From: Dictyophora rubrovolvata
Lineage: Eukaryota > Basidiomycota > Agaricomycetes > Phallales > Phallaceae
DNA: 64,000 bases
Assembly (NCBI GenBank): GCA_029959195.1
Contig: CP114123.1
Location: forward strand, 868,001 to 932,000
Reading direction: 5' to 3'
Shown here: positions 2,562 to 31,551 of the stretch, piece after piece
Layout of the letters: every line of letters starts with the position of its first letter
How positions within the stretch are numbered: position 1 is the first letter of the stretch
Notes under the pieces: model-generated
What the model saw: the letters and a program-made list of their open reading frames with translations, nothing else
Database searches by the model: none
What the model was told of the DNA's origin: nothing
Translations under genes and position numbers: made by a program

Positions 2562-4014
2562 CTATTGCTCGGAATGGCTTGGAGGTCTATCGACAATGGC
2601 AGTTTCGTCAGGCTGCAATACACTAAAACCGCTCTTCATGATGAACTACAATCGCCGTCCAACCTGATGGCGCAAAGTCCTTTCGTGGTCGAATAAACAC
2701 AGAGAGGAAGGAGCGGGGTGTGGCCATCTTGGCTCGTCGTTTGTTTCGTCAATCGTATGAGGTGAGGTTGGATTGTTTGATGATAAGGATTCAGATGAAT
2801 CAGAGGCCAACAGTGGGGCTGCTTGGGAGACAAACAGCGGCTGTATGGAAAAGGGATCTATGACGCTACGTACATTATCGCGACTTCTTCTTCGTTTGCG
2901 AGATCTAAGCCAGAAGAACACGATAATTGAGCATATCATAATTCCCACAACACCTCCCACAACACCCCCAACAATACTTCCAACTTGTGATGAATTTACA
3001 TCCGCAGGTGGTACTGGGTGTGATGTGGGATACCCACCCACCCCTTTACTACTAGAATTCGCGGGCGAGGGACCTGTATAGGGGAAAGAGCCGTTTGTCA
3101 CGACAAGAAAACCCAATGCTAAAGGAGTCTGCCCTGGGCTCCCTGTGTATTTGGAAGAAAGTACGTGATTTCCCATCTCAAGAGTTGGAGTCGTAAAGAA
3201 ACGGTGAAAAGATGTTGTAGCTGAAGACGGTTGTGGTAGGCCCGCTAACTTAAAAGGTGAGTAGGGTTGACCATCGATAGAATATTCCGCCGAAGACGCA
3301 TTATGCGGCTCGTCAGTAGGGATAAATCCATACCAAGCCAATTGAGTCCCTGCGTCATTTTCAAAAAAAAAACGTTTCGGGCTTTCGTACCAATGAAGGT
3401 GACCTTGACGAGGCCCTTAGGATCCGTTGTTTGGTTTGCTGTTTCCCCCAAAGCGCCCCATCCTGAAATATAGTCAATTGCCGGATCGTTATTATTGATA
3501 ACAATAAGTGAATTCTCCAGAGAGACATTTAAGGATGGTAGATATTGAATATAGTCCAGATAGAACGGCATTCCTTTTGAGGTTACGTTAACGACGAGTT
3601 CATGTGCGCCATCTGAAAAGTTTTTTTGACTGCACAATGACCAATTATTTTCAGGAGATTGAGATACATTTGGTGAATCAAAATCAATGCCATCGAGGAG
3701 ACATTTCCAAGTAGGATTAGGATCTGTCGACTAGTTTGCGATATTGACGGTGCCCCATACGTTTATTAACGAACCTTTTTCCAAAATAACACTAAGTAAA
3801 AGTCTTATGCGAATAGACCGGGTGTAAAATGCTGACCATGAAATGAAAAAGCGAAACTGCTTGTTGTGGTGGTGCTATGCAATTTCGGTGTATACGCTGG
3901 GTCATTATTTCCAAAACTATTGACCGTGGAAGCCTGTTCGGTTGTCCATTTACCGGCGTACGTTATACTTGTGTCGTCGTTTCCGACGCGAACCACTCGA
4001 TCTTGGAGAGGCAT
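2562..4014 (-). pseudogene. Array copy A: decayed two-repeat membrane protein
   Basis: This is the outermost member of the array. Exon 1 (4014-3837) starts MPLQDRVVRVGNDDTSITY. Exon 2 begins at 3774 and exon 3 covers the second repeat, linker, membrane helix (VGSIVGGVVGGVVGIMICSI) and basic RSRKRRRSR. Exon 2 has an in-frame TAG at 3733-3731 where paralogues read Ser. The tail slips out of frame near 2690, so the frame stops at 2646. Eroded traces of the HEDSGIR box and of PPxYSEQ (now PPSHSEQ, about 2562-2590) remain downstream. Both point to a pseudogene of a formerly full-length copy. The ectodomain resembles copies C and E. A 152 bp foldback MITE sits in its 5' flank. Confidence 0.8.
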
Positions 4015-4279
4015 TTATATAAACTGCTCTAGAGGCGGCACTCAGCAAATTCCTGTCTCATCTGGCAGAAAAGAAGAGAGTAATATGTTGTCCGAGTCGT
4101 TTAGTGTGTTCTCCAATTGCCAACACTCCACCTAAATATCTGGCTCCAGCTCACAAGTTGCACACAGGCCGTGCACTTACTTTTAGCATGAGATCCAAAT
4201 ATCAACGTGCTAAACCATTTTACTGGCTCCTTAGACTGGCCTACGGCATGGTACCTGATTTGCGCTCCACTTTGGTTAA

Positions 4280-4372
4280 AAACGCCAGACTTGAGGGCGC
4301 TGCGGGGGGATCCAATAATGTGTTGTAGTTTACTATAAGAAAGAGAAAATTTTCAGTCGAGGTTGCATCGAA
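4280..4372 (-). repeat. Upstream block shared by array copies (copy A)
   Basis: The sequence GGATCCAATAAT, then TTTTCAGTCGAGGTTGCATCGAA, recurs 300-450 bp upstream of several array start codons (B, C, D, E, G). Between paralogues it is better kept than the surrounding spacer. It is either a shared control region or simply part of the duplicated unit. Confidence 0.55.
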
Positions 4373-4870: not shown

Positions 4871-4889
4871 CAAACAAATCTGTCAGAGC

Positions 4890-5850: not shown

Positions 5851-7406
5851 CTATTGCTCGGAGTATGTTGGAGGTATTTCGACAGCAATTCCCGCAAGGA
5901 CGGGCTGTGATATACGAATACCACTATCTTCATGTTGAACAGGAGGTATGGTATTAGCCGCTGCGCCTATTGGCACGGTACCTTTTCGTGGACGCGGCGG
6001 ACTAAACTGTGTGAGTCCAGGAGCGATTGGGAGGGGCCGCCTTGATCCACTGATTGGTTCATCGGTCATGTAATGTGATACTGAATTGTTTGAAGACGAG
6101 GTTAAATTGGAGGGTGGGCTCATGGTTGGTTGTGAGTGGTGACGTGTAGACGAAGCTCCTTGACTTCCAGCAGTCTGATTCGCCAACAATGGGGTTGCTT
6201 GAGGGACAAACTGCGGCTGTATGGAAAAGGGTTCTATGACGCTACGTTTGCCACAACGTCTGCCACTTAGCCCGCGGAATCTGAGCCAGAAGAACAAGAT
6301 GATGGAGCATATCACAATTCCCCCAACACCCCCCACAACGCCTCCAACGATGCTTCCGACATGTGATGAATTTTTACTAGTAATACCACTCATTGATGGC
6401 ACTGGACTGGGCGTGGGATTTCCACCGGTTCCTCCGCTAGGATTTGTGGGCGAGGAACCTGTGGAAGGAAAAGAACCGTTTGTGACAATAAGATACTCGA
6501 ACGTAAACGGAGTCTGTCCTGGGCCTCCCGTATATTTGGCGGAAAGTATGTGAGGTCCCGTCTCAAGAATTGATGTCGTAAAGAAGAGTCGATTGAATGC
6601 TGTAGCCGAGAATGATTGTGATAGACTCGGTAACTGGAAAGACGTGAAGGGTTGACCATCCACGGAATACTCCCCAGAAGAGGCATTACGCGGCTCTGAA
6701 ATAGGAGTATATCCATACCAGGCGAGTTGAATTCCTGCATCGTTATTTTACTCAGATTGAAAACCCCAAAATTTGAGACTTCCGTACCAATAAACGTCAC
6801 GTTGACAAGACCCTCAGGATCCGTCGTTCCGTTTCGGATGTCTATAGGACCCCATCCTGAAATAAAATCAACAGCGGGATCGGTGTTTGCGATAAATACG
6901 AGTGAATTATCCAGAGGGACATCTGAAGAAGGTTGATATTCAAGAAAGTCCAAATAGAATGGCATCCCTTTTGAGGTTACGTTTACGACGAGTTCATGTG
7001 CGCCATTTGAAATATCCCCTTGACTGCACAATGTTCTAAGGTTTTCTTGATTAAATGAGGATAGATTCGGTACACCGAGGTCAATGCCATCGACGGCGCA
7101 TTTCCAAGTAGGGTCCTGGTTTTGCAATGACAAATTTGCGATATCGATTGAGCCGATCACATTTATTGACGAGCCTATTTTCGAATAAAAGTCTCATTCA
7201 AATAGGCCATGATTATTATACTGACCATGAAATGGAAATATAAAACTACTTATTGTGGTAGTACTGTGTAATGTCGGGGAAAACGTTGGGCCATTGATCA
7301 AATTTACGAAATTGTTGACCGTGGATGCCTGCACGGTTGTCCAATCACCGACGTATGTTATACTGTCATTGTCGTTTCTGACACGAACCAATCGATCTTG
7401 AGACAT
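5851..7406 (-). CDS. Array copy B: two-repeat membrane protein with PPxY tail
   Basis: Three exons (7406-7226, 7174-6788, 6734-5851) give 483 residues. The start MSQDRLVRVRNDNDSITYVG aligns with all other copies. Repeat 1 (about 1-185) has the conserved pair of Cys in TWKC and TLC and the motif DGAHELVVNVTS. Repeat 2 begins near TDPAVDFISGW and runs to the end of the ectodomain near residue 290. The membrane helix (HVGSIVGGVVGGVGGIVICS) is followed by RFRGLSGRR. The Pro/Ser-rich tail carries QHEDSGIRISQP and ends EIPPTYSEQ. Several N-x-S/T sites lie N-terminal to the helix. There is no signal peptide, so an N-out, C-in topology is inferred from the positive charges after the helix. Function is unknown. 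The copy looks whole and its exon 1 is almost identical to copy D. Confidence 0.85.
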
Positions 7407-8610: not shown

Positions 8611-8617
8611 ATTCGGG

Positions 8618-9080
8618 TAATATAGTTTAGAGTTCAGAACCGCGAGTACTGCAGCTTGGAATAAGCTCCATCGCATTATTAAAACCGGCGCTATGAATAC
8701 CTCTTGTTGGAGTGGGAGCCATTGTTGTCCTGGAGGCTGTTATCTGGGAAGCGGCAGCGATAGCCGAGTAGCGGATGGGAAAGGCACACTGTTGGCAAAG
8801 GAATTGAAATCCGATTGAAAATGCGTCTTTGAACCTGGTCTCACCCTCGACTTCTTGCACTTTGATTTTTATAAACAGAGCAGGTTGCATGCAACGCGTT
8901 TAACTACGGCACCCGGACCGGTAAGACGTCCCCGGCGCTTATCACGAGAAGCCCAATGATCCGACAGCCCAATAACCATAGCACAGTAAGGAATGGTGGG
9001 ATGGCGAACTGGACGAACTTGTTGGAGTCATAGCGGACCTGATGCATTTGTAACAAACTTGAGATTCCTCATGTTTGTCG
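8618..9080 (-). pseudogene. Relic of an H/J-type array gene
   Basis: Read on the minus strand, 8800-8880 resembles the segment just after the membrane helix of copy H. Both share GTGAGACCAGGT..CAA.GACGCA. Bases 9045-9065 give GTTTGTTACAAATGCATCAG, the same as the end of the H ectodomain (VTNASD). No long frame survives. It is a heavily eroded copy of the second subfamily lying inside the territory of the first. Bases 8694-8790 recur near 16500. Confidence 0.5.
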
Positions 9081-9082
9081 GA

Positions 9083-9551: not shown

Positions 9552-11101
9552 CTATTGCTCAGAATAGGTTGGAGGTATTTCGACGATAGTTGCAGGCTGC
9601 GATAAACGAATACCGCTATCTTCGTGTTGCACAGGAGTTATTGTAGGTGTTCTACCTGAAGCAGATCCTTTTTGTGCTGGAGGTGGGGTAAACTGAGCAG
9701 GAGGAGCAGGGAGCGGCCGCCTTGGGCTGCTGAATGTTCCATCGGTTGGGTAAAGAGAGTCCGAATTGTTTGAGGACGAGGCTGAATTGGAAAGGAGACT
9801 CATGCTTGGTTGTGATGAAGATGAATGATGAGTATACGAAGTGCTTTGACTTCCAGCAGTCTGATTCAGTGCCAACAATGGGGCTGCTTGAGAGACGAAC
9901 TGCGACTGTGTGGAAAAGGGCTCTATAACACTGCGTCGTATTATTTCGTTATGAGGATTGCTTCTTCTTCGTTTGCGCGATCTGAGCCAGAAGAAAATGA
10001 TGACTGAGCATACCACAACGCCCCCAATACCTCCTACAACACCTCCAACGATGATTCCGACGTGTGATGAGCTTTTACTAATATTATTTATTGGTGGTGC
10101 CGGATTTGGCGTGGGGTTTCCGCCAGCCCCTCCGTTAGAACTCGGGGGTGAGGAATTTGTGGATGGAAAAGAGCCATTTGTTACGGCAAGGTAATCCAAC
10201 GTGAAAGGAGTCTGTCCCGGGCTTCCTGTGTATTTAGCGGAAACCGTGTGAGACCCCATCTCGAGAGTTGGGGTCGTAAAGAAAAGCTGGTTAAACAGCG
10301 TGGCAGACGATTGTGGTAGGCCGAGTAACGGGAAAGATGAGTAGGGTTGACCATCGATTGAATATTCTCCCGAAGACGCATTATGCGACTCCTCAGTAGG
10401 GATAAATCCATACCAAGACAGTTGAGTCCCTGCGTCATTTTCAAAACAAAATCGAACAAAATGCGTGAGATTTTCGTACCAACGAAGGTGACCTTGACGA
10501 GGCCCTTAGGATCCGTTGTTTGGTTTGCTGTCCCCCCCAAATCACCCCATCCTGAAATATAGTCAATTGCCGGATCGTTATTATTGATGACAATAAGTGA
10601 GTCCTCCAGGGAGACACTTGAAGATGGTCGATATTGAATATAGTCCAGATAGAATGGCATTCCTTTTGAGGTTACGTTAACGACGAGTTCATGCGCGCCA
10701 TCTGGAATATTTCCTTGACTGCACAACGACCAATTGTTCTCAGGAAATTGAAATATATTAGGTGAACCTAGATTAATGCCATCGAGAACGCATTGCCAAG
10801 TAGGGTTTGGGTTTGTCGACGAATTTGCAATGTTGACGGTACCAATCACGGTTATTGACGAGCCTTTTTCCAACAACTGTAAGTAAGGGTTTTACGCAAA
10901 TAGGGCAGTTCCACAATGCTGACCATGAAATGGAAAGGTAAAACTGCTTATCGTTGTTGTACTGTGTAATGTGGGAGAAAACGCTGGACCAAAATTTCCA
11001 AAATTTTCGACCGTGGATGCCTGCACGGTTGTCCAATTACCGACGTACGTTATACTTGTGTCGTCGTTTTTGACAAGAATCGCTCGATCTTGAAAAGACA
11101 T
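9552..11101 (-). CDS. Array copy C: two-repeat membrane protein with PPxY tail
   Basis: Exons 11101-10924, 10863-10480 and 10429-9552 give 479 residues in frame. Repeat 1 carries ILVKNDDTSITYVGNW, FTFPFHG, TWQC and WSLC. Repeat 2 carries NNDPAIDYISGWG, WYGFIP and GEYSIDGQPYSSF. The TNGSFPSTNSS linker is rich in N-glycosylation sequons. The membrane helix lies at about 311-336, followed by RSRKRRR. The tail of about 140 residues holds PPAQFTPPPAQKG (a possible SH3-type site), QHEDSGIRLSQP, and ends VEIPPTYSEQ. The gene looks whole. Intron 1 contains an in-frame stop here, unlike in E and F. The localisation and the WW-domain partner are inferred; the biological role is unknown. Confidence 0.86.
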
Positions 11102-11668: not shown

Positions 11669-11669
11669 T

Positions 11670-12000
11670 GTATGTTCCACTAGAACAAGAAAAGACCATA
11701 AAGGAAGGTGAAGCACAAAAGAAAAGGGCACCAATAAGGTACCAGCTCATTATGTACTCCCAACATATTGAGCTTGCACACCAAGGACTGAGAAGAACAC
11801 ATCGGTAGAAGGAATATTTTAAAATTGAGATGATAATTATGCTCACGATGATTAACATAGATATCGGTCTGCCACGGGAGTATTTCGCTGAGATTTGAGG
11901 GTCATAATAATCACAATATATTGTAACTTGAAGTCTAATAGCGCATTGCTTCGATCAGGAGTTATTTCATTGATACGGAATTCGTCGTCTCCGGGCTAAG
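11670..12000. other. Spacer between copy C and the lyase gene
   Basis: No gene is recognised. It should hold the promoter of the plus-strand lyase gene. Confidence 0.35.
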
Positions 12001-12067
12001 TTGACGGATAGGCAGTTCTTGTTCCACCGTTGGTCCGGGTATTGATGGACTACGTTTGCGCGATGGA

Positions 12068-13380
12068 ATGAGCGCGAGATTGGCTCTCGAGGCAGGGTTT
12101 TCCATCTTGTACATGTCGGGAGCGGTCAGTACGGCTTCCATGCTGTTCGTAAAGATTCCGTCGCTGTTTAGTTCGGAAATACTTAGGCCTCGTTTTAATA
12201 GTGGGCAACCCGATCTTGCCATTGCCACACAGAGGGATTTCGTCCAGGTATGGTCTTTTTTTCGGTGTGGAATGGCAGAGTCGAACTTCTTGTATGTCAG
12301 AATGCCGGAATGATAGCAGGACTGTCGCCTTCTACTCCTCTAATAGCGGATGCTGATACAGGGTAAGTATTCTATTCATAGCTACCCTTTTTTTCCTGCT
12401 TACGAGAAATGTTAAAGTTTTGGAGGTCCTGTCATGTGCGCTCGTACCGTGACTCTTTATGATCGTGCTGGTGTCGCTGCACTGCATATCGAAGATCAGG
12501 TAGATCCCGAAATAACATCTCAATATATCATAGTCAACTGTTTTTAATCAGGTTCAGACAAAGCGATGTGGTCATCTCAGTAGGTATTCCTGAACGAATC
12601 ATTTTAGATATTCCCTCTCATGGTGGTTTTCTAATATTAGTGGGGAAACAGATCGCACCCCTTCAAGAGTTCATTTCTAGAATTCGTGCCGCAGCAGCAG
12701 CTCGCGATGCCATTCCCGAATCTGACATTGTCCTTATAGCCCGCACTGATGCCGCACAGACCTATGGGATGGATGAAGCACTCAATCGTCTTAAAGGAGC
12801 CATTAAGGCTGGAGCAGACGTTGCGTTCTTAGAAGGTATAAATATTATCCGTGTCCACTCATTCACTTTTGTAACAACAACTGACGTGCTACAGGTGTGC
12901 GTTCTCGAGAAGAAGTAGAAAGAACCGTTCGAGAACTAGCTCCAACACCGGTAAACCATTGCTTTGGTATGGTTATACTGTCTCATATCGGGCGATAGGT
13001 TTTATTGAACATTGTTCATGGTGGAAGCACCCCTGACTTCACGATTGCTGATGCCAAAGAGATGGGAGTGAAGGTCGCAAGTATGCATTATTATTGCCGG
13101 TTATAAACTGGAAGAAAGCTAAAGCAACTATCCAGTCTTTCCTCTTATCAGTGCGCTTGGTGCGGTTCACGGTATGAGGGCTGCTTTGGCCTCTTTAAAG
13201 GAAACTGGGAGCGATGTTTCAACTGCTAAAGGTCTTAGTCCCAAAGGATTTTTCGAAATTATGGGTAGGCCGCTCTACGTCTTATGCAAGTCACAAGCTT
13301 AATATTCTCTGAGTATAGGTCTTGATGATGCTATCGCGATTGATAGGGCTGCTGGAGGCGAAGCCTATGGAGATATTTAA
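12068..13380 (+). CDS. PEP-mutase/isocitrate-lyase superfamily enzyme, N-terminus unclear
   Basis: Spliced exons read MSARLALEAGFSILYMSGA, then GQPDLAIATQRDFVQ, MIAGLSPSTPLIADADTG, CARTVTLYDRAGVAALHIED and KRCGHLMGKQIAPLQEF. ESDIVLIARTDAA, GADVAFLEGVRSREEVE and LNIVHGGSTPDFTIADA follow, ending DRAAGGEAYGDI. The superfamily signature K-[KR]-C-G-H and the metal-site ADTG and RTDA are present, so the C-C lyase/hydrolase core looks active (2-methylisocitrate-lyase or oxaloacetate-hydrolase-like; substrate unknown). At least seven short introns with GT-AG ends fit. The first 25 or so residues are doubtful: the frame upstream of 12068 shows ...VGPGIDGLRLRDG, an apparent extra DGLRLR, and then a stop. 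The start may lie in an unseen exon or be lost. It is the only plus-strand gene inside the array. Confidence 0.75.
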
Positions 13381-13880
13381 TATGATTAGCGATTCTTTCA
13401 ACTTGAACCGATGTGGTGTGCTCGGGTGTTCGAATAGATCAGGAGTGTTTAATGGTCCAAAGTCATCCTTCAAATAAACATTGGCAAACGCTGTCCGGAA
13501 TTTAAGTTCACGTCATTCATCACCGCAGCTAACAACGGTTCACATTTTCTCAACCTTTTATCATTATTTTGAGATCTCAGTAGGTTGTGGTCCCAAGCGT
13601 AAAACTTACCCGATGCAAGTTTGAATCAAGCTAAATCATCATGTGTATGCAGTCTCACCTCGGTTGACATCGCAGTTCTGCATATTATCGCGATTCGACG
13701 TTGTGGAAAAAATTGTGCTAAGTACAATCAAAATAAGTGAGGTAAATGAATGACTTGCCAAACTAATATATAGTATTGTAATAGACAACTCAAAAAACGA
13801 GCGTTGAAGACTACCTAAATGTGGCTACTGTTGGGGCACTAGTCTGGGTCGGAATAAGTTGGAGGTATTCTGACAACAGT
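13381..13880. other. Spacer between the lyase gene and copy D
   Basis: The first 60 bases match the relic at 9110-9178. The CTCACCTCGGTTGA arm of the recurrent hairpin lies near 13655. No gene is recognised. Confidence 0.45.
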
Positions 13881-13920
13881 TTTGTCAAGGACAGAATGGG
13901 ATAAACGAATACCGCTATCT

Positions 13921-15447
13921 TTATGTTGTATGGGAGCCTTGATATGAATCTGTTCCACCTACTGGTGCGGAGCCTTTTCGCAATGAAGGTGGTGGAATAA
14001 ACCGCTGGGGAGGAGGTGAAGGGAGCGGCCGCCCTAGTGATCCATCCATTGTTGCGTCGGTCGTGTAGGCTGAGACTAAATCATTTGATGACGATGTTGT
14101 CAGGTATGAAGATGTGGTGAGATTTGTGCTTGATTGTGAGGGCTGATAAGTAGTGTTCGTTGGGAATCCGTGACTTTCGTCAATCATTGGGCTGGATTTA
14201 GATACCAACTGTGGGGTCGTCTGAAAGACGAACTGTGGTTGCGGAGAAAGGGACTCCATTATGCTACGTCGGAAAATTTTATTATCCCTATTGGTCCTTC
14301 GTTTGCGAGATTTGAACCAGAAGAAGACAATGATTGAGCATATCACGATGCCCGCAATAGCCCCTACAACGCCCCCAACGATGCCTCCGACATGTGATGA
14401 ATTTTTACTAGCATCACTCGTTAATGGTACTGGACTTGATGTGGCATTTCCACCGGTTCCTTCGCTAGAATTCGAGGGCGAGGAACCTGTGGAAGGAAAT
14501 GATCCGTTTGTGACGATAAGATACTCGAACGTAAACGGAGTCTGTCCTGGGCTCCCGGCATATTTGGCGGAAAGCACGTGAGTTCCCATCTCAAGCATTG
14601 GTGTCGTAAAGATAAGTCGATTGAATGCTGTAGACGAAAATGATTGTGCTAGACCCGGTAACGGGAAAGATGTGTAGGGTTGACCATCGGTGGAATATTC
14701 TCCCGAAGAGGCATTACGCGGCTCTGAAATAGGAGTATATCCATACCAGGCAAGTTGTGTCCCTGCATCTTATTTTATCCAAAATAGAATACCAGATAAT
14801 TCGAGACTTCCATACCAATAAACGTCACATTGACAAGACCCTCAGGATCCGTCGTTCCGTTTCGGATGCCTAGATGGATCCATCCTGAAATAAAATCAAC
14901 CGCGGGATCGGTGTTATCGACGCGTACGAGTGAATTATCCAGAGGGACATTTGTAGAAGGTTGATATTCCAAAAAGTCCAAATAGAATGGCATTCCTTTT
15001 GAGGTTACGTTTACGACGAGTTCATGTGCGCCATCTAAGATACCCCCTTGACTGCACAATGTTCTAAGGTTTTCTTGATTAAATGAGGATGAAATCGGTG
15101 AATCAATACCAATGCCATCGACAGTGCATTTCCAAGAAGGATCCTGGTTACTATGCGACAAATTTGCGATATTGATTGAGCCGATCACATTTATTGACGA
15201 GCCTGATAAATTAAAACCATAGTAAGTAAAAGTCTTATGCAAATAGGCCAAGCTTATGATGCTCACCATGAAATGGAAATTTAAAACTACTTGTTGTGGT
15301 AGTACTGTGTAATGTCGGGGAAAACGTTGGGCCATTGATCAAATCTACGAAATTGTTGACCGTGGATGCCTGCACGGTTGTCCAATCACCGACGTATGTT
15401 ATACTGTCATTGTCGTTTCTGACACGAACCAATCGATCTTGAGACAT
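13921..15447 (-). CDS. Array copy D: two-repeat membrane protein, tail cut short
   Basis: Exons 15447-15267, 15202-14816 and 14762-13921 give 469 residues. The ectodomain follows copy B closely (NINGPTFSPTLHSTTT type, GIDSPISSSFNQENLRTLCS), but linker, helix and tail follow copy F. The membrane helix HVGGIVGGVVGAIAGIVICS is followed by KSRKRRTNRDNK. The frame ends ...APVGGTDSYQGSHTT. A net 4-base length difference from copy F at this point shifts the frame. In the next frame the family tail still reads QHKDSGIRLSH and PPTYSDPD up to a stop near 13850. The encoded protein therefore lacks the DSG box and PPxY motif. It could be a tail-less but membrane-anchored form, or an early pseudogene. Confidence 0.78.
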
Positions 15448-16653: not shown

Positions 16654-18173
16654 TTACTCGGAATACATTGGAGGTATTTCCATAATGGTTTCATCAAGGA
16701 CAGGCTGGGGTAAGCGAATACCGCTATCTTCATTTTGAATAGGAGATATTGTAGGTATTCTACCTACTGGTGCAGATCTTTTTCGTGGTGGAGGTGGAAT
16801 ATACTGAATGTATGGTGGCGGCCTACTGGACAGTGTTTGGTCAGTCACGTAAGGTGAGGCAGCTGGATTGTTTGACGACGAGGGTGGACAAGTACCCAGG
16901 GTTGGTTGTGATGGATTTACAGCACCTTGGCTTCCGGCAGTCTGATTCGTTGCCAATAATGGGGCCGCTTGAGAGACAAACTGCGGCTGTACGGAAAGTG
17001 GTTCTATGACGCTACGTGCATTGTCGCGACTTCTTCGTTTTCGGGATCTGAGCGAGAAGAATAAGATGATTAAGCACACCGCAATGCCTCCAACAGCTCC
17101 TACAACACCCCCAACAATGCTTCCTACGTGTGATGAACTTTTGCTGATATCAGTTTTTGGCGGTGCTGAATTTGACGTGGGATTTTCACCAGCTCCTCCG
17201 TTAGAATTCGGGGGGGAGGAATTTGTGGATGGAAAAGAGCCATTTGCTATGATAAGAAAGTCCAACGTTAAGGGAGTCTGTCCTGGGCTTCCTGTGTATT
17301 TAGCAGAAAGCGTGTGAGTCCACATCTCAAGGGTTGGAGTCATAAAGAAAAGCCGATTAAAAAATGTTGTAGTAGACGATGGTAACAGGCCGAGTAGCTG
17401 GAAAGATGAGTAGGGTTGACCATCGATTGAATATTCCACCGATGATGCGTTATGAGGCTCTTCAAAAGGGATAATGCCATACCAAGACAGTTGAACCCCT
17501 ACATCATTTTCAAACTGACAAAATCAAATAAAATGATTGGGACTTTCGTACCAACGAAGGTGATATTGACGATGCCCTTAGGATCCATTGTTTGGTTTGC
17601 TGTTTTCCCCAAAGCGCCCCATCCTGAAATATAGTCAATTGCCGGATCGTTATTATTGATAACAATAAGTGAATTCTCCAGAGAGACATTTGAGGATGGT
17701 CGATATTGAATATTGTCCAGATAGAATGGCATTCCTTTTGAGGTTACGTTAACGACGAGTTCGTGTTCGCCATCTGAAATGTTCTCTTGACCGCACAACG
17801 ACCAATTGTTCTCAGGAAATTGAAATATATTAGGTGAACCTAGATTAATGCCATCGAGAAAGCATTGCCAAGTAGGGTTTGGGTTTGTCGACGGATTTGC
17901 AATATTGATGGTACCGACTACGCTTATTGACGAACCTATTTCCAAACAACAGTAAGTAAAGTTTTCTGTGGGTAGAGAGGTTCTATAATGCTGACCGTGG
18001 AATGGAAAGGTAAAACTGCCTATCGTTGTCGTACTCTGTAATGTGGGCGAAAATGCTGGACCAAAATTTCCGAGGTTATTAACCGCGGATGCCTGCACGG
18101 CTGACCAACTACCGACGTATGTTATACTTGTATCGTCGTTTTTGACAAGAATCGATCTGGGTTGAGAAGACAT
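16654..18173 (-). CDS. Array copy E: two-repeat membrane protein with PPxY tail
   Basis: Exons 18173-17996, 17935-17552 and 17498-16654 give 468 residues, starting MSSQPRSILVKNDDTSITY. Repeat 1 has TWQC and WSLC; repeat 2 has NNDPAIDYISGWG and EYSIDGQPYSSF. The helix HVGSIVGGVVGAVGGIAVCL is followed by RSRKRRSRDN. The tail holds PPPYIQYIPPPPRKRS, QNEDSGIRLPQP and ends EIPPMYSE. Intron 1 (17995-17936) is 60 nt, a multiple of three, with no stop in frame. Retention would insert 20 residues between FPFHG and GSSISVVG. A 106 bp tract spanning exon 2 and part of this intron is identical to copy F. The gene looks whole. Confidence 0.85.
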
Positions 18174-19370: not shown

Positions 19371-19483
19371 GCTCTACTCGGAACTAGTTGGAGGTATTCT
19401 GACAGCAGTTTCATCAAGGACCAATCGAGATAAACGGATATCGCTATCTTTATGTTGTATAGGAGCTTGAATATTGGTTCCAC

Positions 19484-20952
19484 CTACTGGTGTAAAGTCG
19501 ATGGTGGCGGAATAAACTGTTGAGGAGGAGGTGAAGAGAGCGGCCGTCCTGATCCATCCATAGTTTCGTCGGTCGTGTAGGCCGAGACCAAATCATTGGA
19601 CAGCGAGGCTGTCGAATATGAAGACGCGGTGAAGCTTAGAGAGGTTCGAGTTGCGCTTGATTGTGAGGGCTGATAAGTGTACGTAGGTCCGTGACTTTTG
19701 TCAATTGGGCTGGATGCCAACAGTGGGGCCGTCTTAAAGACGAACTGTGGTTGCGTGGTAGGGTACTCTATTATGCTACGTCGGATTATTTTATTATCAC
19801 TACTGGTTCTTCTTTTGCGAGATTTGAGCCAGAAGAAGACGATGATGGAGTATATCACGATGCCCGCAATAGCCCCTACAACGCCTCCAACGATGCTTCC
19901 GACATGTGATGAATCTTTACCAGTATCACTCGTTAATGGTGCCGGATTTGATGTGGGAGCTCCACCGGTTCCTTCGCTAGAATTCGAGGGCGAGGAACCT
20001 GTGGAAGGAAAGGAACCGTTTGTCACGATAAGAAAATCCAATGTTAACGGAGTCTGTCCTGGGCTTCCTGTGTATTTAGCAGAAAGCGTGTGAGTCCCCA
20101 TCTCAAGAGTTGGAGTTATAAAGAAAAGTTGATTAAATTGTGTTACGGAAAACGATGCCGGTAGGCCGAGTAACTGGAAAGATGAATAAGGTTGACCATC
20201 GATTGAATATTCTCCCGAAGACGCATTATGGGGATCCTCAGAATAGATAACGCCATACCAAGACAGTTGAATCCCTGGATTATCTTTAAATCAAAATCAA
20301 ACGATATATGTGGGACTTTCGTACCAACGAAGGTCACGTTAACGAGGCCCTCAGGATCCGTTGTTTGGTTTGCTATTACTCCCGACTCGGAAGCCCTCCA
20401 TCCTGAAATGTAATTAATCGCGTGGTCCTCATTTTGTACAATTGTGACTGAATTCTCCAGAGAGACACTTGAAGATGGTCGATATTCAATATAGTCCAGA
20501 TAGAATGGCATTCCTTGTGAGGTCACGTTAACGACGAGTTCATGCGCGCCATCTGGAATATTTCCTTGACTGCACATCACCCAATTGTTTTCAGGAAATT
20601 GAAATAACTTTGGTGGACCTAGATTAATGCCATCAAGGAAGCATTGCCAAGTAGGGTTTGGGTTTGTCGACGGATTTGCAATATTGATGGTACCGACTAC
20701 GCTTATTGACGAACCTATTTCCAAACAACAGTAAGTAAAGTTTTTTCTGGGTAGGGAGGTTCTATAATGCTGACCGTGGAACGGAAAGGTAAAACTGCTG
20801 TTTGTCATGGTCCTACGTAATGTCGAGGAAAATGCTGGGCCAAAATTTCCCAAAGTATTCATCGTAGATGCTTGTACGATCGTCCAATTACCGACGTACA
20901 CAATACTTGCGTCGTCATTTTTGACTAGAATCGGTCGATTTTGGAGAGGCAT
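19484..20952 (-). CDS. Array copy F: mosaic two-repeat membrane protein, tail cut short
   Basis: Exons 20952-20775, 20714-20325 and 20274-19484 give 452 residues. The ectodomain is of the C/E type (DGINLGPPKLFQFPENNW, SQGNIPDGAHELVVNV). From about 20035 on, linker, helix and tail are of the D type (GSSPSNSSEGTGG, VVGAIAGIVIYSIIVFFW, KSRKRRTSSDNK). The frame ends ...FIPPPSTLHQ because about 10 bases are missing relative to D. The next frame still shows QHKDSDIRLSRL and IPPTSSE up to a TAG at 19374-19376, so even that tail has lost the Tyr of PPxY. Intron 1 (20774-20715) is 60 nt and stop-free, as in E. The product could be a tail-less membrane protein or a young pseudogene. Confidence 0.78.
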
Positions 20953-21649: not shown

Positions 21650-22210
21650 TGATACGTGCGCAACAGGAGCGAACAGGAAGGAAAGGGAACCAAATGATAA
21701 GTGTGAGTCGAGGAAAATAGTGTAGGATAAGAATTGTAATTGTAGAGGAGAAAAATAAAGCTTATTTGCTCGAATTCAGACTGAGGGAAAAGCTGCGATA
21801 CAAAACTGAGGATATTGTTGGTCTTAAAACCGCGGATTTTTATATACAAGGGTAGCTCAGTGTCCGAGTGAAAAACGGAACACTTGTAATCTAAATGTGA
21901 ACAAAACGAGGTAAAACCATGTGGAAAAATGAATGCATGGTCTGGGGATTGGAATTTAAGAGAAAGAAAAGGGTTTCGCCGAGTGATTAAAATGTAAAAT
22001 AAGGGAAAAATATATAGTAAAATGTGAACACCAAGAAAAAGCTAAGTTTAAAGGCAATACGGCCTTTATAATCGTCATATGGAACCCAACCTTAGTGCAT
22101 ATACGACGGACGGGCTGTGCGAGTATTGGTTATTTCCGGCTCGGGTGGTATTTAAGCCCGAAGCGTCAATTCCCGCCGTTTCTCCTTGTACACTATTCTC
22201 GTGTGCAACA
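21650..22210. mobile_element. Solo-LTR-like fossil, family 1, copy 1
   Basis: This 561 bp element has TG...CA ends (TGATACGTGCGC ... GTGTGCAACA) and a 4 bp target duplication AAAC on both sides (21646-21649, 22211-22214). It is the inverse of the element at 23116-23681 along its length. No coding capacity or second LTR is seen. A TATTTAAG box about 60 bp from the right end suggests transcription left to right. The LTR retrotransposon superfamily cannot be told from an LTR alone. The sharp duplication argues for a fairly recent origin, while differences from its partner show some age. Confidence 0.75.
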
Positions 22211-23115
22211 AAACATACAACGAAGCGACTTACAGATCCTATGCCCAAAGTAACGTAAAGGACCACCCACTGTCATCATGGCAGGACTGTGATTCCCAAA
22301 TTGCTCCCGTTTTGGAGCGTCAGAAACTTAGAAGACTCACTTCAATCAACGAACTGAACCAGGCTTTGAAACTGACGAGATAGCAAACCCGTCCCGCTGA
22401 TTTGCAAGGACACAATGTCTCTCATCAATTCACTATGTTTATGTACATGAAATGTAGATGTTATTGCTCGGAATAAGCTGGGGGTATTTCGACGACAGGT
22501 TCGCTGAGAGGCTGTGTTAAGCGAATGCCGCTATCTTCGTGTTGAATGAGCGCTCTAGCAGCTGTTTCGTCTACTAGTGCGGAATTGTTTCGTGGTTGAC
22601 ATGGTGGAATGGACTGAGGCACGGAGGGAGTTGGGGAATGAACTACTTGACCCATTGAAGTACTAGTTGTTTCATAATGGTTCAGAGAGACTAAATTGTT
22701 TGAAGCCGAACCTGGATTAGAGGTTTGACTCAAGACCGGTTGTAAGGGAGGATGAGTATAGGTTTAACCATGAATTTGGGAAAATTGATTTGATGTCGAC
22801 GGTGGGGCTGCCGCCTGAGACGGGCTGCGACGGCTGCGGGAAGGGATCTATTGTTCTATGCCCGATCCCGATCACTCTATTATAAAAATTGTTCTTTCTC
22901 CGTTTGCTCTTTAGCCAAAAGAAGATGATGGCTAAGATCACAATGCTCCCAATAGCCCCTACGACACCCCCAACAATAATTCCGATGTGTGGTGAACTTT
23001 TACTACTATCATTTGTTGGTGGTGCTGGATCCGGACTTGATGTGTTTCCACCGACTCTTCCTGTAGAACTGGCTTTTGTTGATGATGCTGGATCCGTTAT
23101 AGGATTCCCATAGGC

Positions 23116-23681
23116 TGTTGTGCGCGAAAACGCCGTACAAGGAGAAACAGTAGAAATTGACGCTTCGGGCTCAGTACCACCCGAGCCAGAATAACCAAGA
23201 CTCGCACAGCCCGTCCATCATATATGCACCGAGGTTGGATTCCATATGACGATTATACAGGCCGTGTCGCCTTTAAACTTAGCTTTTCTTAGTGTTCACA
23301 TTTTACTATATATTTTTCCCTTATTTTACATTTTAATAACTTGGCGAAACCTTTTCCTTTCTCTTAAATTCCAATCCCCAGACCATGAATTCATTTCTCC
23401 GCATGGTCTTACCTCGTTTCAATCACTTTTAGATAACCGGTGTTCCGTTTTTCACTCGGACACTGAACTACTCATGTATATAAAAATCTGCGGTTTAAAG
23501 ACCAAAAATATCATAAAATTCCTTAGTTTTGTATTGCAACTTTTCCCTCAGTTTGAATTCAAGCACAAGCTTTATTTTCACTCTTCTACCTTTACAATTT
23601 TATCCTACACTATTTTTCTCGACTCACACTTCCCACTTGGTTCCCCTTTCCTTCCTGTTCGCTCCTGTTGTGCACGTATCA
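23116..23681. mobile_element. Solo-LTR-like fossil, family 1, copy 2 (inverse of copy 1)
   Basis: This 566 bp element has ends TGTTGTGCGCG ... GCACGTATCA and target duplication AGGC (23112-23115, 23682-23685). It lies inside the linker-coding part of copy G. It matches 21650-22210 in inverse orientation, with several small length differences. A frame of 168 codons across it is accidental. Confidence 0.78.
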
Positions 23682-24070
23682 AGGCCCGTCTGGTAGAACT
23701 TGTAGGTGAGGAACTTGTGGAACCTGAGAGAAAAGAACTGTTCGTGACATGAAGATAATCCGAGGTAAAAGGAGTCTGTCCTGGGCCCCCTGTGTATTTG
23801 GCGGAAAGCACGTGAGTTCCCATCTCAAGAGTTGGAATCGTAAAGAAAAGTTGATTGAATGCTGTAGCATTAAACGATTGTGGTAGGCCCAGTAACTGGA
23901 AAGATGTGTATTAGGGTTGACTATCGATGGAATATTCCCCTGAAGAGGCATCATGCGACTCCTCAATAATAATAAGAGTCAAGATAGTTCAATCCCTAAA
24001 CCACCCATTCATTCACTTGAGTTATAATGAAAAAGCATATGAGACTTCCATACCTACAAAAGTCACGTTG

Positions 24071-24944
24071 TGTAGATACTAAGTCTGTGAGGGATTTGTT
24101 TTAGATTTAGAATAGGCTTAGTTCCTAATAAAATATAATGGGGTTTTGTTTAGGGATTGTTCAGCAACTAAAAAGTCCTGTTATTGAAGGTGAGACTCTT
24201 GAAGGAAGATTTGAACTTAAGAATTAAGTTCAAATTAGTAGAGATAGATAGGGACTTATTACTAAGTCCTTGAGAATAGAAAAAGATAAGAGGAAAAAAG
24301 ACCAATTTGATTGGTAAGCACTTTGGTGCACAACAGTAGTTACAAGATAGCTAGATTACAAGAGAAATGAGCCCTTATTTATACACCTTGAGCAAGTACA
24401 AATAGCTCCAAACATTAGTAAGAGAAACATCATGTGAAAGATAAGAAATTACTTAAAAAGGAAGTGAATGAATAATAGTGGATCAGGGAAAATTATAGTG
24501 AGACAGGGAAGTGGAGAGAGATGATAAGAAAATAAAGGGGTTCCTGGAACTAAGTCATCTGACTGTTCCTGAAAGATAAGATACATTACAAATAAAGGAT
24601 TATTAAAGCAAGCAGGAACTAAAAAAAGAATAAAGAAAATACTTGTTTTTGGGTAGATAAGGGAGGAAATCATGAAATACATGACAAAGTCGTCGCTATC
24701 TGGCATCGACCTAATATACTGCAATGATCTCTAAGATGGAAAGATGATTTAATTCGAATGAAAAATGAGGATTAAATACAAAAGGTCTGAGGACCACAAT
24801 GTAAGCTAAGGACATAATGGAAGGACTAAAAATGAGGACAAGAAAGGAGTGTCTGTACGGACAAACAAATGATGAGGACAAAGAACCTAAATATACTCTA
24901 AACGGGCACTAGGGACCTCGTGTAGGGAGCTGCACTCCCTTACA
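24071..24944. mobile_element. Solo-LTR-like fossil, family 2
   Basis: This 874 bp AT-rich insertion in exon 2 of copy G has ends TGTAGATACT ... CTCCCTTACA, so TG...CA with a TGTA/TACA inverted pair. The target duplication is GTTG on both sides (24067-24070, 24945-24948). Paralogues read CACGTTGACAAG across the empty site, so the borders are certain. It has no coding capacity and no relation to family 1. The LTR superfamily is undetermined. Confidence 0.78.
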
Positions 24945-25548
24945 GTTGACAAGACCCTGGATCTGCAGTTTGGTTTGCTGTTTTCTCCACACTGACCCTC
25001 CATCCTGAAATATAGTCGATTGTGGGATCAATATTATTGATAACCATGAGTGAATTCTCTAAGGAGGCACTTGAAGAAGGTCAATATTGAATATAGTCCA
25101 GATAAAATGACATTCCTTGTGAAGTTACGTTTACAACGAGCTTATGTGCACCATCTGGGATATTTTGTTGACTGCACAATAACCAATTGTTTTCGAAGGA
25201 ATTGAATATATTTGGTGTACCAAGACTAATACCATCAAGAACGCATAGCCAAGTAGGGTTCGGGTTTGTTGATGGATTCGCGATGTTGACAGTGCCAAAT
25301 ACTTCTATTGTCGAGCCTTTTCAGAATAGATATTAAGTAAAAATCATGCCGTGCGTATAATACTAACCATGAAAGGGAAAAATAAAGCTGCTGATCGCTG
25401 TGGTGCTGTGTAACGTCGAGGAAAACGCAGGGCCATTATTTCCAAGGTTATTGACCGTAGATGATGCCTGCACAGCTGTCCAATCATTGACGTATGTTAT
25501 ACTTAAATCATCGTTTGTAACAAGAAGCACCCGATCTTGGGAAGACAT

Positions 25549-26290: not shown

Positions 26291-26324
26291 GAATACAATG
26301 GCCGAGATTTCACAATCATACTAG

Positions 26325-27773
26325 TTACGATGGACTATAACCTGGAGGAAGCACTAGCGCATTGTTTAAACCTGGAGTTACCATGCGCAATCCGCTATCT
26401 TCATGGTGTACTAGTACTCGACGGATAGCCCGCTCTTGCTCCGTCGTAGGTCCGAGACTTGAATACGATAGGGGCGATTCGGATGGGCTACGAACGCTTG
26501 AACTCTGCGCAAATGCTGTTTTGGGTAACGTGGCCACGGAGGATGGTATTTGGTGTAAAGAATTATCGATCCATATTGAAGTGGAAAAGGGCGGCGTTGT
26601 CGCAGCTGTTTCTTGGGTAGTAGGGTCTCCGCGCAGTCCCAGTTCACCAGGTGCGGATGAGGAAGAAACACCGCTCGCAGAAGAAATATCCAATTGGAAG
26701 TGCGTCCTTGGACCTGGTCTCACCCCCAACTTCTCGCGCTTTAAACGCCTGTAATATATATATAGTAGAGCAACCACCACACCAAATCCTACTAGTACAA
26801 ACCCTCCGATAGCGCCATTAGGAACTCTGGGCTTATTATCAGACTGGGGGGTTGAAGGAAGAGTTGAAGACGCTGACGGTGTTGATATTGGGCGAGAAGA
26901 CGATGCCGTGGTAACAGGATCTGATGCATTTGTAACCAACAAGGAATACAATGTCAATGGGGTCGTCGTTACCCAGAAACCTGACAAAAAGTGTATGTGG
27001 TCCTTGTTGTAAGACGCCAGTAGTCAAAACAGGAACATTGAAAAAGTCGGTTGAGTTAGATATATTAGAGGGAAGGCCGACAAGAGTGAACTGCATAAGA
27101 GGGCCTTCGTCGACAGAGTATACGGCGGAAGAAGGCGCATGAGATCCTGTCCCCAAGATAATGCCGGTCCATTCTAACTGAATTCCTATGAAAGATATAT
27201 TGGCGAAGGCATTGGTTGCCTCTGTTGAGTTGGCAGAATATGGGCCTAACTGTGACCATCCTGGACTGAACGTTATTGAAGGGTCCGTGTTGTCCATCCA
27301 AACAACAGCATTATTGGTGGAAACATTAGCTGAAGGCACATATCGTATACTGTCAAGGTAGTATGGCCAGCCTCGTGCGGAGACATTAAGGACAAGTTCT
27401 TGAGGACCATCCGGTAAAGACACCGAGCATTGAGGAGCATTGTTTAATCCAGTTCCGGTGATAGAACTAACATTGACACCGTCGATAGAGCATTCTACCT
27501 CGGGTCCGTTCGGTGAACTGTCAGTAATCAGAGCGAGTACGGCAATAAAATCCCCTTGAATAGAAAAGTCACTGGAAGATATTTTGGGGGAGATAATAAC
27601 TTACCGCTGAACGAAAAAGAAAAGCTGCTATTTGACGTTGTCGTGTGATATATACCTTCTAAAGGGGGTCCAAAAGAACCCAGATCCTGAAAAATGGAAG
27701 AATTGACAAGAAACCATTCGCCCTCGTAGTGTATCTGAGCATCCTGGTTGCTCACGAGAATTGAACGTGTCAT
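26325..27773 (-). pseudogene. Array copy H: subfamily-2 membrane protein, one frameshift
   Basis: Exon 1 (27773-27605) starts MTRSILVSNQDAQIHYEGEW. Intron 27604-27555 is 50 nt. Exon 2 runs from 27554; the second intron of subfamily 1 is absent (FIGIQLEWTGI is continuous). Repeat 1 has VEC and QC; repeat 2 has DNTDPSITFSPGW and YSVDEGPLMQF. Near 26965 the sequence LFVRFLGNDD is 5 bases shorter than in copy J and the frame changes. The remaining frame is otherwise intact: helix GGFVLVGFGVVVALLYIYYR, then RRLKREK, a tail with HHEDSGLRMVTP, and the end VLPPGYSPS. Total exon length is not a multiple of three. I call it a young pseudogene; a sequence error is the alternative. Confidence 0.72.
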
Positions 27774-28306: not shown

Positions 28307-29655
28307 TCACACCGTACTCGAACCGCTGCCTGAGGTGGTACTTGTCACAAAAGACGATGACGTAGCTGTAGAGGAATTGGATGATCGGGACTCTTCTCGC
28401 TGCAACGAAACATGCTTCGATCGAGTAAAAACGTCTGCAGTAGTGTCGTACCTCGTCCTCTGGGAAGTAGAGTTATCGTTTGGCGATCCCGGCTCGCGTG
28501 TCAACGGTGCCGGCGAATGGGGAGCGGAAGAGTACGTATACTCCATTTGGAAGGGCGTTATTCCATTTAAGACTGTCTGAAGTTTCCTGCGTTTCAAACG
28601 CCTGCAATATATAAACAGCAGAGCCATAAAAGTCAACCCTACAATGGCCCCTACAACTCCCCCTACAGCAGCGCCGACGGTGCTTCTTCGCTTATCATCA
28701 ACTTGAGTGGTCGAAGGAGATGCTGTTGGTGCTGTCAGTGGAAATGATGTTGATGAACTGGGCGACTCGGAGCTTGTTGAGTCTGATGGCTCTGATCTAT
28801 TTGCGACCACGAGATTATTCAATGTTAAAGGGATCGTGGAATCGTTGCCCAGAAAACGGACAAAAAGCGTATGCGATCCTTGATTTAAGGTGGTATTGAA
28901 AAAAGGAACGTTAGGAATATCGGTAGAGGGACTTGGGGATTCTGAGCCTGGGAGAGAGAAATTGACCATAGGTCCGCGATCAACAGAATATTGAGTTAGA
29001 GGATGAGCATGCTGAGGCCCCGAGCCTTCGATAACCCCAAACCAGCTTATACGCTCTCCTATGAAAGATATATTAACAGAAGCATTGGTGGTGGTCGTCT
29101 TGTTCGCTTCGAGACCCTTCACCTGTAACCATCCTGAGCTATAAGATATTGAAGGATCTGTGTTGGATATTATAACCGTAGCATTATCGAGCAGAGCATC
29201 ATCTGAAGGTACATATTGTAAGTTGTCAAGGAAGAAATGCGTGCCCGAGGAAATGTTAACGACAAGCTCATGGGACCCAGTCGGAAGGATCGACGTCGTG
29301 CATAGAGGAGCATTGTTTTCCTTCAATAATTTGGTAGAATTAAGAGGATTACCATCGATAGAGCAGTTGAATTCAACTTGGTCCGGTGAATCATTGTGAA
29401 TCAGGCCAAGTACATCAATTGAAGTCCCTTAGGCCAAAAGTGTCAATTTACAATATGTTTTGTAGGAGATAACGACCTACCGTTAAATGCAAAAGAAAAA
29501 CTGCCGTTCGATATTGCCTCATAAAGGGGGTTCTCTAAAGGTGGTGATGGTCCGACGGCAGACAACGCCTGATATACCGAAAAATTGGTAGGAGACCATT
29601 CTCCTTCATAGCGTATTTGATCACCCCGGTTGCTCACGACGAGTTTACGCGACAT
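28307..29655 (-). CDS. Array copy I: subfamily-2 membrane protein without PPxY tail
   Basis: Two exons (29655-29481, 29427-28307) give 431 residues, starting MSRKLVVSNRGDQIRYEGEW. Repeat 1 has FNCSIDG, PLC and HELVVNISSGTHFFLDNLQY. Repeat 2 has SNTDPSISYSSGW, SFIGERISWFGVI and YSVDRGPMVNFSL. A Ser/Pro/Thr linker is followed by the helix VGAAVGGVVGAIVGLTFMAL and by YCRRLKRRK. The tail is Ser/Thr-rich and ends TTSGSGSSTV. It has neither the HEDSG box nor the PPxY end seen in H and J. The frame is open throughout, so a functional tail variant is possible. Many N-glycosylation sequons lie before the helix. Confidence 0.82.
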
Positions 29656-30107
29656 TCTGTTTTCAACCGACTAAGGGTCGTGGTGCTGTTTGAGGCCAGG
29701 ATGAGTTTATCCTGGTGGATGCTGTGCTTGTATTTTAAGCTTACGAACGGGTCAATCGAGGTCGGCGACGCCTCGAGCTCGTCACAGTCGTCTCCGGTGA
29801 TCACCCCGTCGCCATAGTCGTGTGGAAACCTAATGAAAGATACCTCAGTCTAGATACTCGTTTGAGATGATTGATCTTCACTTCAGCCCTGTTAAAATGA
29901 TCAAACGAAAAAAACTATACAATATAAGTAAAAGTCCAGCGCATTAGGTGACCATGGTAAATAGGCTCATACATAGTAACCAATGCGCAGAGGATGCCAT
30001 TAAAGATGTAAACATGAAAGGAATATTGACTAGAATGATCAAAGATGAGATGGGTATTTCCTTGACAACAAAGCGCGTATCGGCTCGATCAGCCGCATTT
30101 GAGACGA
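29656..30107. other. Spacer with partial hairpin
   Basis: ACCTCAGTCTAGATACTCG then TTTGAGATG (29843-29870) is an imperfect copy of the 11633 hairpin, about 190 bp upstream of copy I. No gene is recognised. Confidence 0.45.
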
Positions 30108-31551
30108 TCAGGCTAAAGTGTAATTCGGCGGCAGTTCCACCACATTATCCATACCCGAACTTATTATACGTAATCCGCTGTCTTCATGCTGTAATCGCAC
30201 GAGCGGCGCTCCTTCCACCAGATTTGAATTTGAATTGAGCGGTGAGACGTATGAACTCTGTACTTGTGCCGGTACCGACGACGACACAGACCCAGTATAC
30301 GGACCTTGTTGTGGTGAGCTAACCCGTGTTTGAGCATGAGCCGTTGATGTTGCAGTACCAGACTTTGTTCTTTGAGAAGTAGTGATACTGTTAGACAACC
30401 CTGGTTCACGCGTCGCAGGTGACTGAGGAGCGTGAGATGCGTCTATCAGGAAAGGCGTTATGGTTTCATCTGCCCGTAGCTCTCTGCTCCTTGACCGTCT
30501 GCGGTATACGAATAGTAGAGCGACCATCAAACTGATTCCTGCGATACCCCCTACGACTCCTCCAACTATAACGCCGATAGGTTTTCCATGTGGGGATGTT
30601 TCAGAGGGTGAGGATGGAGGAGACGGTGAAGCTGGAAGAGAAGGTGAGGATGGAAGAGATGGGGAGGATATGGATGAGGATGCATTTGTAATAAAGAGAT
30701 TATTCAAGGTCAAAGGGGTCACGGAATCGTTCCCCAGATAGCGGACAAAAAGAGTATGCGATCCTTGTTCTAAAACATCGGTGATGAAAAATGGAATATT
30801 AAAAGTGTCGCTTGAGTTAGAAGCTCCAGGAGGTAAACCTGGGAGAGTGAAAGATACCAAAGGGCCGTCGTCAATGGAGTATTCGGCGGAAGAAGGCGCA
30901 TGAGGTTCTGATCCTGGAATAATCCCGAACCACCCTACCCGATTTCCTACAAAAGATACATTGGCGAAGGCATTCGTAGCTTCTGTCATGTTCGCTGTGA
31001 ATCCACCTAGCTCTGTCCATTCCGGACTATATGTTATTGAAGGGTCTACGTTGGGTATTATAATGGTGGCATTGTTGAGTGGAACATCGACCGAAGGCGC
31101 ATATTGTAAATTGTCAAGGAAGAAGGACGAGCCTTGCGTGGAGGTGGAGATGTTAACGACGAGCTCATGGGATCCATCTGAGAAATTTGATGTGCATAGA
31201 TGAACATTGTTTTGTTCCGTTGAAATGGAGGGAGTAATAATAACACCGTCGATTAAGCATTCCAATTTGAGTTGACTCGATGAGCTGTCGGTAATAAGTC
31301 CCAGCACACTAATATAAGTCCCTTGTGAAAATATATTAGCATGAAAGATGTTTGAGTGAGGCTATCAATAATTTACCGCTGAACGAGAATGTGAAACTAC
31401 TATCCGATGTTGTCATGTGAAGTGTGTCTTCTAAAGGTGGTCCGAAACTGCCTAAAGTCTGAAAAGACGAAGAATTGGATAAAGACCAGTCTCCTGCGTA
31501 GTTTATCCGGGCATCCTGGTTGCTCACAACAATTAAACGGGAGTTTGCCAT
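30108..31551 (-). CDS. Array copy J: subfamily-2 membrane protein with PPxY tail
   Basis: Exons 31551-31377 and 31321-30108 give 462 residues. I chose the ATG giving MANSRLIVVSNQDARINYAG because it aligns with other copies; an ATG 16 codons upstream is also in frame. Repeat 1 has LECLIDG, HLC and FLDNLQYAPS. Repeat 2 has NVDPSITYSPEW, SFVGNRVGWFGII and AEYSIDDGPLVSF. A Ser-Pro-Leu-rich linker leads to the helix (about 305-330, GVIVGGVVGGIAGISLMVAL), followed by YRRRSRSRE. The tail of about 130 residues holds LQHEDSGLRIISSG and ends VVELPPNYTLA. The gene looks whole and is the right-hand end of the array. Function is unknown. Confidence 0.86.

Follow-up and report, generated by a model that had tools for sequence, protein, structure and literature searches.

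A tandem array of ten paralogous genes, spanning 29 kb and lying entirely on the minus strand, occupies positions 2562-31551 of a 64,000-nucleotide stretch of the Dictyophora rubrovolvata genome (GenBank assembly GCA_029959195.1, contig CP114123.1, positions 868,001 to 932,000, corresponding to C7:868001-932000), and it encodes what appears to be a receptor-like membrane family in which a pair of carbohydrate-binding-like ectodomains is joined, through a stalk and a single membrane helix, to a tail that ends in a ubiquitin-ligase docking motif. This whole stretch is referred to here as the window, and features are given in window positions, while C1, C6, C7, C9, C10 and C11 denote contigs of the same genome (28.24 Mb in 11 contigs), the one genome examined. 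The reading proposed for the array, tentatively and at a confidence a little short of even, is that of glycan- or wall-binding surface proteins whose life at the surface is set by the ligase Rsp5 and whose genes turn over by birth and death. The statements below on fold, tail motif, ligase locus, exchange between copies and purifying selection are computed results.

An earlier note, made from the letters of the window, had claimed ten paralogues, and all ten were recovered, each start being a minus-strand ATG at the head of a homologous first exon. A family hidden Markov model (HMM) run in six frames over the window detected every one of the ten copies, in pieces and on the minus strand, and beyond them weak matches only (E 1.4 or worse); DNA repeat families run in register across up to seven array copies. 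The view that each copy has the full layout held in part, as the helix and basic run are present in all seven readable copies (2, 3, 4, 5, 6, 9 and 10) but an unbroken frame to a full tail in four of the ten only. These four are called intact, meaning an unbroken spliced frame including the complete tail: copy 2 (5851-7406; 483 amino acids; exons 7226-7406, 6788-7174 and 5851-6734), copy 3 (9552-11101; 479 amino acids; exons 10924-11101, 10480-10863 and 9552-10429), copy 5 (16654-18173; 468 amino acids; exons 17996-18173, 17552-17935 and 16654-17498) and copy 10 (30108-31551; 462 amino acids; exons 31377-31551 and 30108-31321). Three more are open through the membrane helix and stop before the tail motif, namely copy 4 (13848-15447; 469 amino acids, stop at 13921, tail motif in another frame at 13848-13937), copy 6 (19377-20952; 452 amino acids, stop at 19484, tail in another frame with both motifs altered there) and copy 9 (28307-29655; 431 amino acids). 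The remaining three are broken: copy 1 (2565-4014) is interrupted in exon 2 by a nonsense codon at position 74 and has its tail out of frame; copy 7 (22464-25548) is a relic with a nonsense codon in exon 2 and two insertions resembling long terminal repeats (LTRs), its tail DNA still being readable; and copy 8 (26328-27773) loses its frame just past ectodomain II, the rest including the tail motif lying in another frame. The frame breaks in copies 4, 6 and 8 may be assembly errors. Copies 1-6 share two short introns (41-64 bases) at fixed sites, after an FHG codon and after a V[TI]F[VI]G codon, and copies 8-10, copy 10 included, have the first intron and not the second. Between copies 2 and 3, a short scrap at 8771-8863 resembles the copy 8 region (76% over 93 columns) and is possibly a further relic.

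The extracellular part is formed by two homologous modules, ectodomains I and II (hhalign E 4e-7, against E 0.46 for a reversed control). A structure model of ectodomain II, represented in copy 10 by the piece at 30678-31079 (minus strand) and computed from an alignment of 23 window pieces, comprises 134 residues and is all beta, with a predicted local distance difference test score (pLDDT) of 86.3 and a predicted template modelling score (pTM) of 0.79; a model from a single sequence was poor (pLDDT 38) and was set aside. When searched against the PDB with Foldseek, the model gave 54 matches at E <= 0.001, of which the best was the CE2 esterase 2waa (E 2e-6, TMq 0.69), followed by the glycosyl hydrolase 3nqh, the CBM6 chain 2cdp and the CEX esterase 6hfz, with CBM36 and CBM35 lower among the matches and weaker scores for cycloglucanotransferase, hinokiresinol synthase and Cry-protein chains. 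By its modelled structure, ectodomain II is thus a predicted beta-jelly-roll of the CBM6/35/36 and CE2-N type. Each readable ectodomain contains exactly two cysteines, both invariant in all seven copies. The N-terminal part had also been described as rich in glycosylation sequons, and this stood in a milder form: the seven readable ectodomains hold 69 sequons compared to 39 in composition shuffles, an enrichment that reaches P<0.05 individually in three of the seven, and these counts are not independent because the sequences are related. Matches to Neurexin and CD4 chains (E 0.0012-0.013) aligned at profile positions 222-382 and 318-363, covering part of ectodomain II, the stalk, the helix and the start of the tail, and they were taken as composition or helix matches, as were the NCBIfam matches.

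The ectodomains are followed by a stalk that is, by eye, rich in Ser, Pro, Thr and Asn, and then by the single Gly/Val-rich helix and basic run reported earlier. In all seven readable copies this helix is the sole strongly hydrophobic segment and carries GxxxG three to four times, in the manner of a glycine zipper, and the basic stop-transfer run places 6-9 basic residues in the 25-residue stretch from helix position 20 onward. A hydrophobic N-terminus was looked for and found in none of the seven, and neither a signal peptide nor an upstream first exon was seen in the array copies. DNA conservation between copies ends at most 96 bases before the ATG, save in copies 2 and 4, where it extends over 351 bases upstream plus a further 114-column block; among six more distant paralogues located elsewhere in the genome (hereafter outer paralogues), a methionine stands just before domain I in five, the sixth (C9:1684k) not being read to its start. 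The non-hydrophobic N-terminus common to the seven copies suggests a protein with its N-terminus outside that would be inserted by its own helix, and a single-pass, N-outside topology is, as far as sequence can tell, probable. The designation of a receptor-like membrane family is consistent with these features, that is, a jelly-roll ectodomain pair, two invariant cysteines and a positive-inside helix. Two other labels were rejected: kinship to Snowball (SNB1), a protein with seven helices (PMC10949477), and an EGFR-like identity taken from TM_ErbB1 (PF21314), for which all scores shown fell below the 27.1-bit cut-off and no kinase match was listed.

On the opposite side of the membrane would lie a long low-complexity tail ending in DSGxR...PPxY[ST], found in copy 10 at 30114-30197 (minus strand). 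The two array subfamilies, as found by ectodomain, comprise twelve members (copies 1-10 and two copies on C6 and C11), and both motifs occur in some frame in nine of them and in the frame of the ectodomain in six (copies 2, 3, 5, 10, C6 and C11); they are lost from copies 1, 6 and 9 and out of frame in copies 4 and 8, while copy 7 is a relic. The six outer paralogues (C7:864k, C7:527k, C9:1487k, 1515k, 1684k and 1695k) were likewise found through their ectodomains and not through their tails, and by eye all six have a downstream PPxY and five of six a DSGxR, the tail of these five being a separate piece after the main frame. Over 22 tails read in any frame, DSGxR and PPxY are each present in 21, copy 6 being without both; 12 of these rows (loci L069-L079) were found with a tail query and picked by a pattern requiring DSG.R, so that conservation of DSG in those 12 is circular. 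Not among the 22 are copies 1 and 9, which have no motif, C7:864k, which has PPxY alone, L080, whose motifs lie in different frames, and C7:961k, in which no motif was seen; the tail readings also exclude C10:959k, C9:1692k and weaker-scoring places. A beta-TrCP phosphodegron (DSGxxS or DSGxxxS) was rejected, as its pattern is present in 3 of the 22 tails only. PPxY is an established ligand of the WW domains of Rsp5/Nedd4 ligases, and one locus that combines three WW domains with a HECT domain was found in the genome, at C1:993156-995165; elsewhere, WW and HECT places lie apart from each other.

These tails also bear on a different assignment, already listed in the earlier note as a cargo-adaptor option, in which the proteins are transmembrane Rsp5 adaptors whose ectodomain or helix binds other membrane proteins while the PPxY tail brings the ligase, many paralogues thus serving many cargoes. 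The C-terminal PPxY, in frame in six genes, lends this option more weight than it had, and it is further favoured by tails that contain few lysines of their own (1-3 each in all seven readable copies), by the single WW-HECT locus and by the precedent of known membrane proteins with a PPxY, among them Sna3 and comm/PRRG4 (PMC2171029, PMC5578492). Against it, the sequence suggests no cargo, and known adaptors are not known to carry a tandem CBM-like ectodomain. The adaptor assignment is considered unlikely.

The reading of the locus as a recombining birth-and-death array of surface proteins draws on exchange between its copies, and the clearest case is copy 4. Over 80 upstream bases and the ectodomains, copy 4 resembles copy 2 (82-96% in 150-column windows), and over the stalk, helix and tail it resembles copy 6 (77-90%); copy 4 is a chimera, with an ectodomain of copy-2 type and a stalk, transmembrane helix and tail of copy-6 type. 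The breakpoint located by maximum chi-square falls at column 1054, equivalent to window position 14522 (uncertain by some tens of bases, informative sites being sparse in columns 1064-1101), and none of 1000 permutations reaches it; informative sites divide 222:41 for copy 2 on the left and 47:125 for copy 6 on the right. The junction thereby comes to lie within ectodomain II, some 8 codons short of its end (14500), and roughly 130 bases ahead of the helix (14391). Mosaic tests with copy 6 as the child return the mirror of the copy 4 event. Copies 4 and 6 share one tail module, and the tail is broken in both. The test for copy 5 was weak (1 of 1000 permutations) and that for copy 1 gave no exchange (68 of 300 permutations).

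Dispersal is the other component of this turnover. Intact copies with spliced frames are present off the array at C6:2122708-2124247 and C11:1409002-1410610, and a further, plus-strand member (C7:864949-866339) sits immediately to the left of the window, beyond the AMP deaminase segment. At C7:961971-962822 (L042), about 62 kb from the array and on the opposite strand, there is a degenerate duplicate of copy 9 followed, by eye, by copy-8-like tail sequence, and further members occur on C7:527k, C10:959k and C9. A search of the genome with the tail returned 12 places, one at C7:526k and 11 within the 1488-1695 kb interval of C9, and these 11 therefore indicate a second family cluster; it belongs to an outer clade, occupies C9:1508-1541 kb and 1684-1696 kb on both strands and has tails with DSGxR...PPxY. 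In a midpoint-rooted ectodomain tree of 17 rows (without copy 7, C7:961k, C10 and several C9 members), copies 1-6 form one group together with the C6 and C11 copies (100/99) and copies 8-10 another (100/98), the C9 and C7:527k rows stand apart (100/100) and C7:864k is placed beside the first group on a long branch (92/90). Copy 6 has the C6 copy as its sister (100/98), and the placement of such off-array copies suggests that copies left the array for other chromosomes. In short, the chimeric copy 4, the broken copies and the dispersed copies support the notion of a recombining birth-and-death array.

Selection was gauged by the ratio of nonsynonymous to synonymous differences (pN/pS), pooled over all ten pairwise comparisons among five intact copies (2, 3, 5, C6 and C11), a type of measure that exchange between copies blurs. 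Pooled pN/pS is lowest for the tail motif (0.38) and for ectodomains I and II (0.39 each), followed by the helix (0.42), the cytosolic part (0.59) and the stalk (0.63), and no pooled 40-codon window exceeds 0.63. Single pairs exceed 1 in short parts of the stalk or helix (26-36 codons) that are too short to weigh, that is, the helix of copy 5 versus C6 (26 codons, synonymous divergence dS 0.05), the stalk of copy 5 versus C11 (1.08) and the stalk of copy 4 versus copy 6 (dS 0.04). At the level of averages, these copies show purifying selection and no ectodomain arms race, and no positive selection was found in the ectodomain by region or pooled window, although a few selected sites may be hidden. 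The rapidly changing surface recognition that had been proposed for the cluster is not supported by these averages, in which both ectodomains fall below the stalk and the cytosolic part.

The same figures weigh on the idea that the array is an ordinary lineage-specific expansion, of dosage value or without a strong role, in which duplicates decay nearly freely and few copies matter. Decay is indeed visible in the six of ten copies that are broken or tail-less and in the LTR-like insertions of copy 7; against free decay, the intact copies are under purifying selection in both ectodomains and the tail motif (0.38-0.39), and the tail motif is common to outer paralogues whose matched ectodomain pieces are roughly 31-39% identical to copy 3. 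Such an expansion is considered unlikely. That allelic and copy-number variation in the array decides hyphal compatibility, as for allorecognition or non-self receptors, is considered very unlikely. The tandem paralogues, the two diverged subfamilies, the broken and tail-less copies and the clear ectodomain/tail exchange would suit it; against it stand the low pooled ectodomain pN/pS, with no 40-codon window above 0.63, and the dispersed intact copies and second cluster, which speak against a single polymorphic locus.

Returning to glycan- or wall-binding proteins under the control of Rsp5, the topology, ligand, ubiquitylation and physiological role in the following model are those we infer. 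Each product would be a single-pass surface protein in which the helix serves as a reverse signal-anchor and carries the N-terminus across the membrane. Glycan binding would fall to the jelly rolls, the ligand most likely belonging to the fungal cell wall or to a contacting organism, and the helices would pack side by side. The PPxY motif would recruit Rsp5, upon which the protein would be ubiquitylated, internalised and sent to the vacuole, a route that could couple ligand state to surface level. At the level of the locus, copies would arise by tandem duplication, be lost or dispersed, and exchange parts at the border between ectodomain and stalk.

Several observations weigh against this model. 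With regard to the ligand, the fold matches of ectodomain II are just 9-17% identical (50 rows listed), the model covers ectodomain II and not domain I, and no Pfam glycan-binding model reached a usable score, CE2_N being detected in two of seven members with a best E of 0.0022 and in none of three domain II pieces scanned singly; it is because of this low identity in the listed matches and the missing usable score that glycan binding is put forward conditionally. As for the topology, C7:864k has a further ATG, in frame and upstream, together with a short hydrophobic run, and an upstream signal-peptide exon may have gone unseen. Regarding the tail, six of the ten array copies have lost its motif or carry it out of frame (copy 7 being taken as broken), so that PPxY may be dispensable in most of the array or its loss a mark of decay, and the presence of the tail in the six intact genes is true by definition. 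Moreover, C7:864k has PPxY without DSGxR and not at the very end, and the degenerate copy-9 duplicate at C7:961k shows no tail motif.

A more elaborate form of the glycan-binding reading, offered as a long shot, is that the locus swaps whole ectodomain pairs between signalling-competent, PPxY-bearing modules of stalk, helix and tail and tail-less ones, so producing within one array receptors and decoys with the same binding face, with surface level via Rsp5, and not a kinase, acting as the signal; such a system may serve non-self or partner recognition in basidiomycetes. In any case, the family now has a concrete anatomy, with a predicted carbohydrate-binding-like face outside, a ubiquitin-ligase docking motif inside and halves that are exchanged within the array, and a vague receptor-like cluster has been narrowed to two questions, namely which glycan is bound and whether Rsp5 sets the surface level. 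If the ligand is non-self, these proteins would be candidates for acting at the surface stage of recognition between hyphae of mushroom-forming fungi.

Many fungal membrane proteins are without a named domain, and proteins broadly similar in build are probably widespread, and without names, among mushroom-forming fungi; in a full-text literature search, no description of such a family was recognised among the matches listed. Comparison with known systems delimits the family from several sides. The N-terminal domain of CE2 and the jelly rolls of CBM6, CBM35 and CBM36 are alike in the predicted fold of ectodomain II and in a weak CE2_N profile match, whereas the array proteins, besides their low identity, are without a catalytic domain and membrane-anchored, with glycan binding as a proposed property. 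Plant wall sensors of the CrRLK1L type, such as FERONIA, have a tandem malectin-like ectodomain, and the likeness here would consist of tandem carbohydrate-binding-like jelly rolls facing the wall on a single-pass protein; unlike FERONIA, the array proteins have no kinase, no signal peptide was seen in them and the tail bears a ubiquitin-ligase docking motif. The yeast wall sensors of the WSC/Mid2 type are single-pass and wall-facing with a Ser/Thr-rich stalk, as the array proteins would be, but the array ectodomain consists of predicted folded jelly rolls, with no signal peptide seen and no WSC or other Pfam sensor domain found. Sna3 and comm/PRRG4 resemble the family as small membrane proteins with a PPxY that recruits Nedd4/Rsp5 ligases; they are not known to have a tandem jelly-roll ectodomain or to be organised in tandem arrays. 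In KIR-type receptor arrays, tandem receptor paralogues, hybrid copies and copies differing in their tails are also present, but the fold is unrelated and no ectodomain positive selection was found here at the level of averages.

The flanks are as the earlier note had named them, an AMP deaminase gene on the left of the array and an alpha/beta-hydrolase-like gene on the right (Hydrolase_4, E 4.4e-5, under the Pfam cut-off). Between copies 3 and 4, the array is interrupted by an unrelated gene of the PEP-mutase/isocitrate-lyase family on the plus strand (11980-13500, approximate and by eye; PF13714, E 1e-9 on 12463-12915). Copy 7 contains at 23116-23681 (minus strand) a multi-copy LTR-like repeat of about 561-565 bp bounded by TG...CA, whose inverted partner lies at 21650-22210; the two are 87-90% alike (79-91% for single short arms), the repeat has at least 40 genome matches including itself (40 of 44 candidates scored), and the pair looks like solo LTRs, one of them within copy 7. 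A second TG...CA insertion in the same copy, 874 bp long at 24071-24944 (minus strand), is flanked by CAAC (by eye); a portion of about 587 bp is repeated, at 96-99% identity, in no fewer than 39 other places (40 of 80 candidates scored), so its source is probably young.

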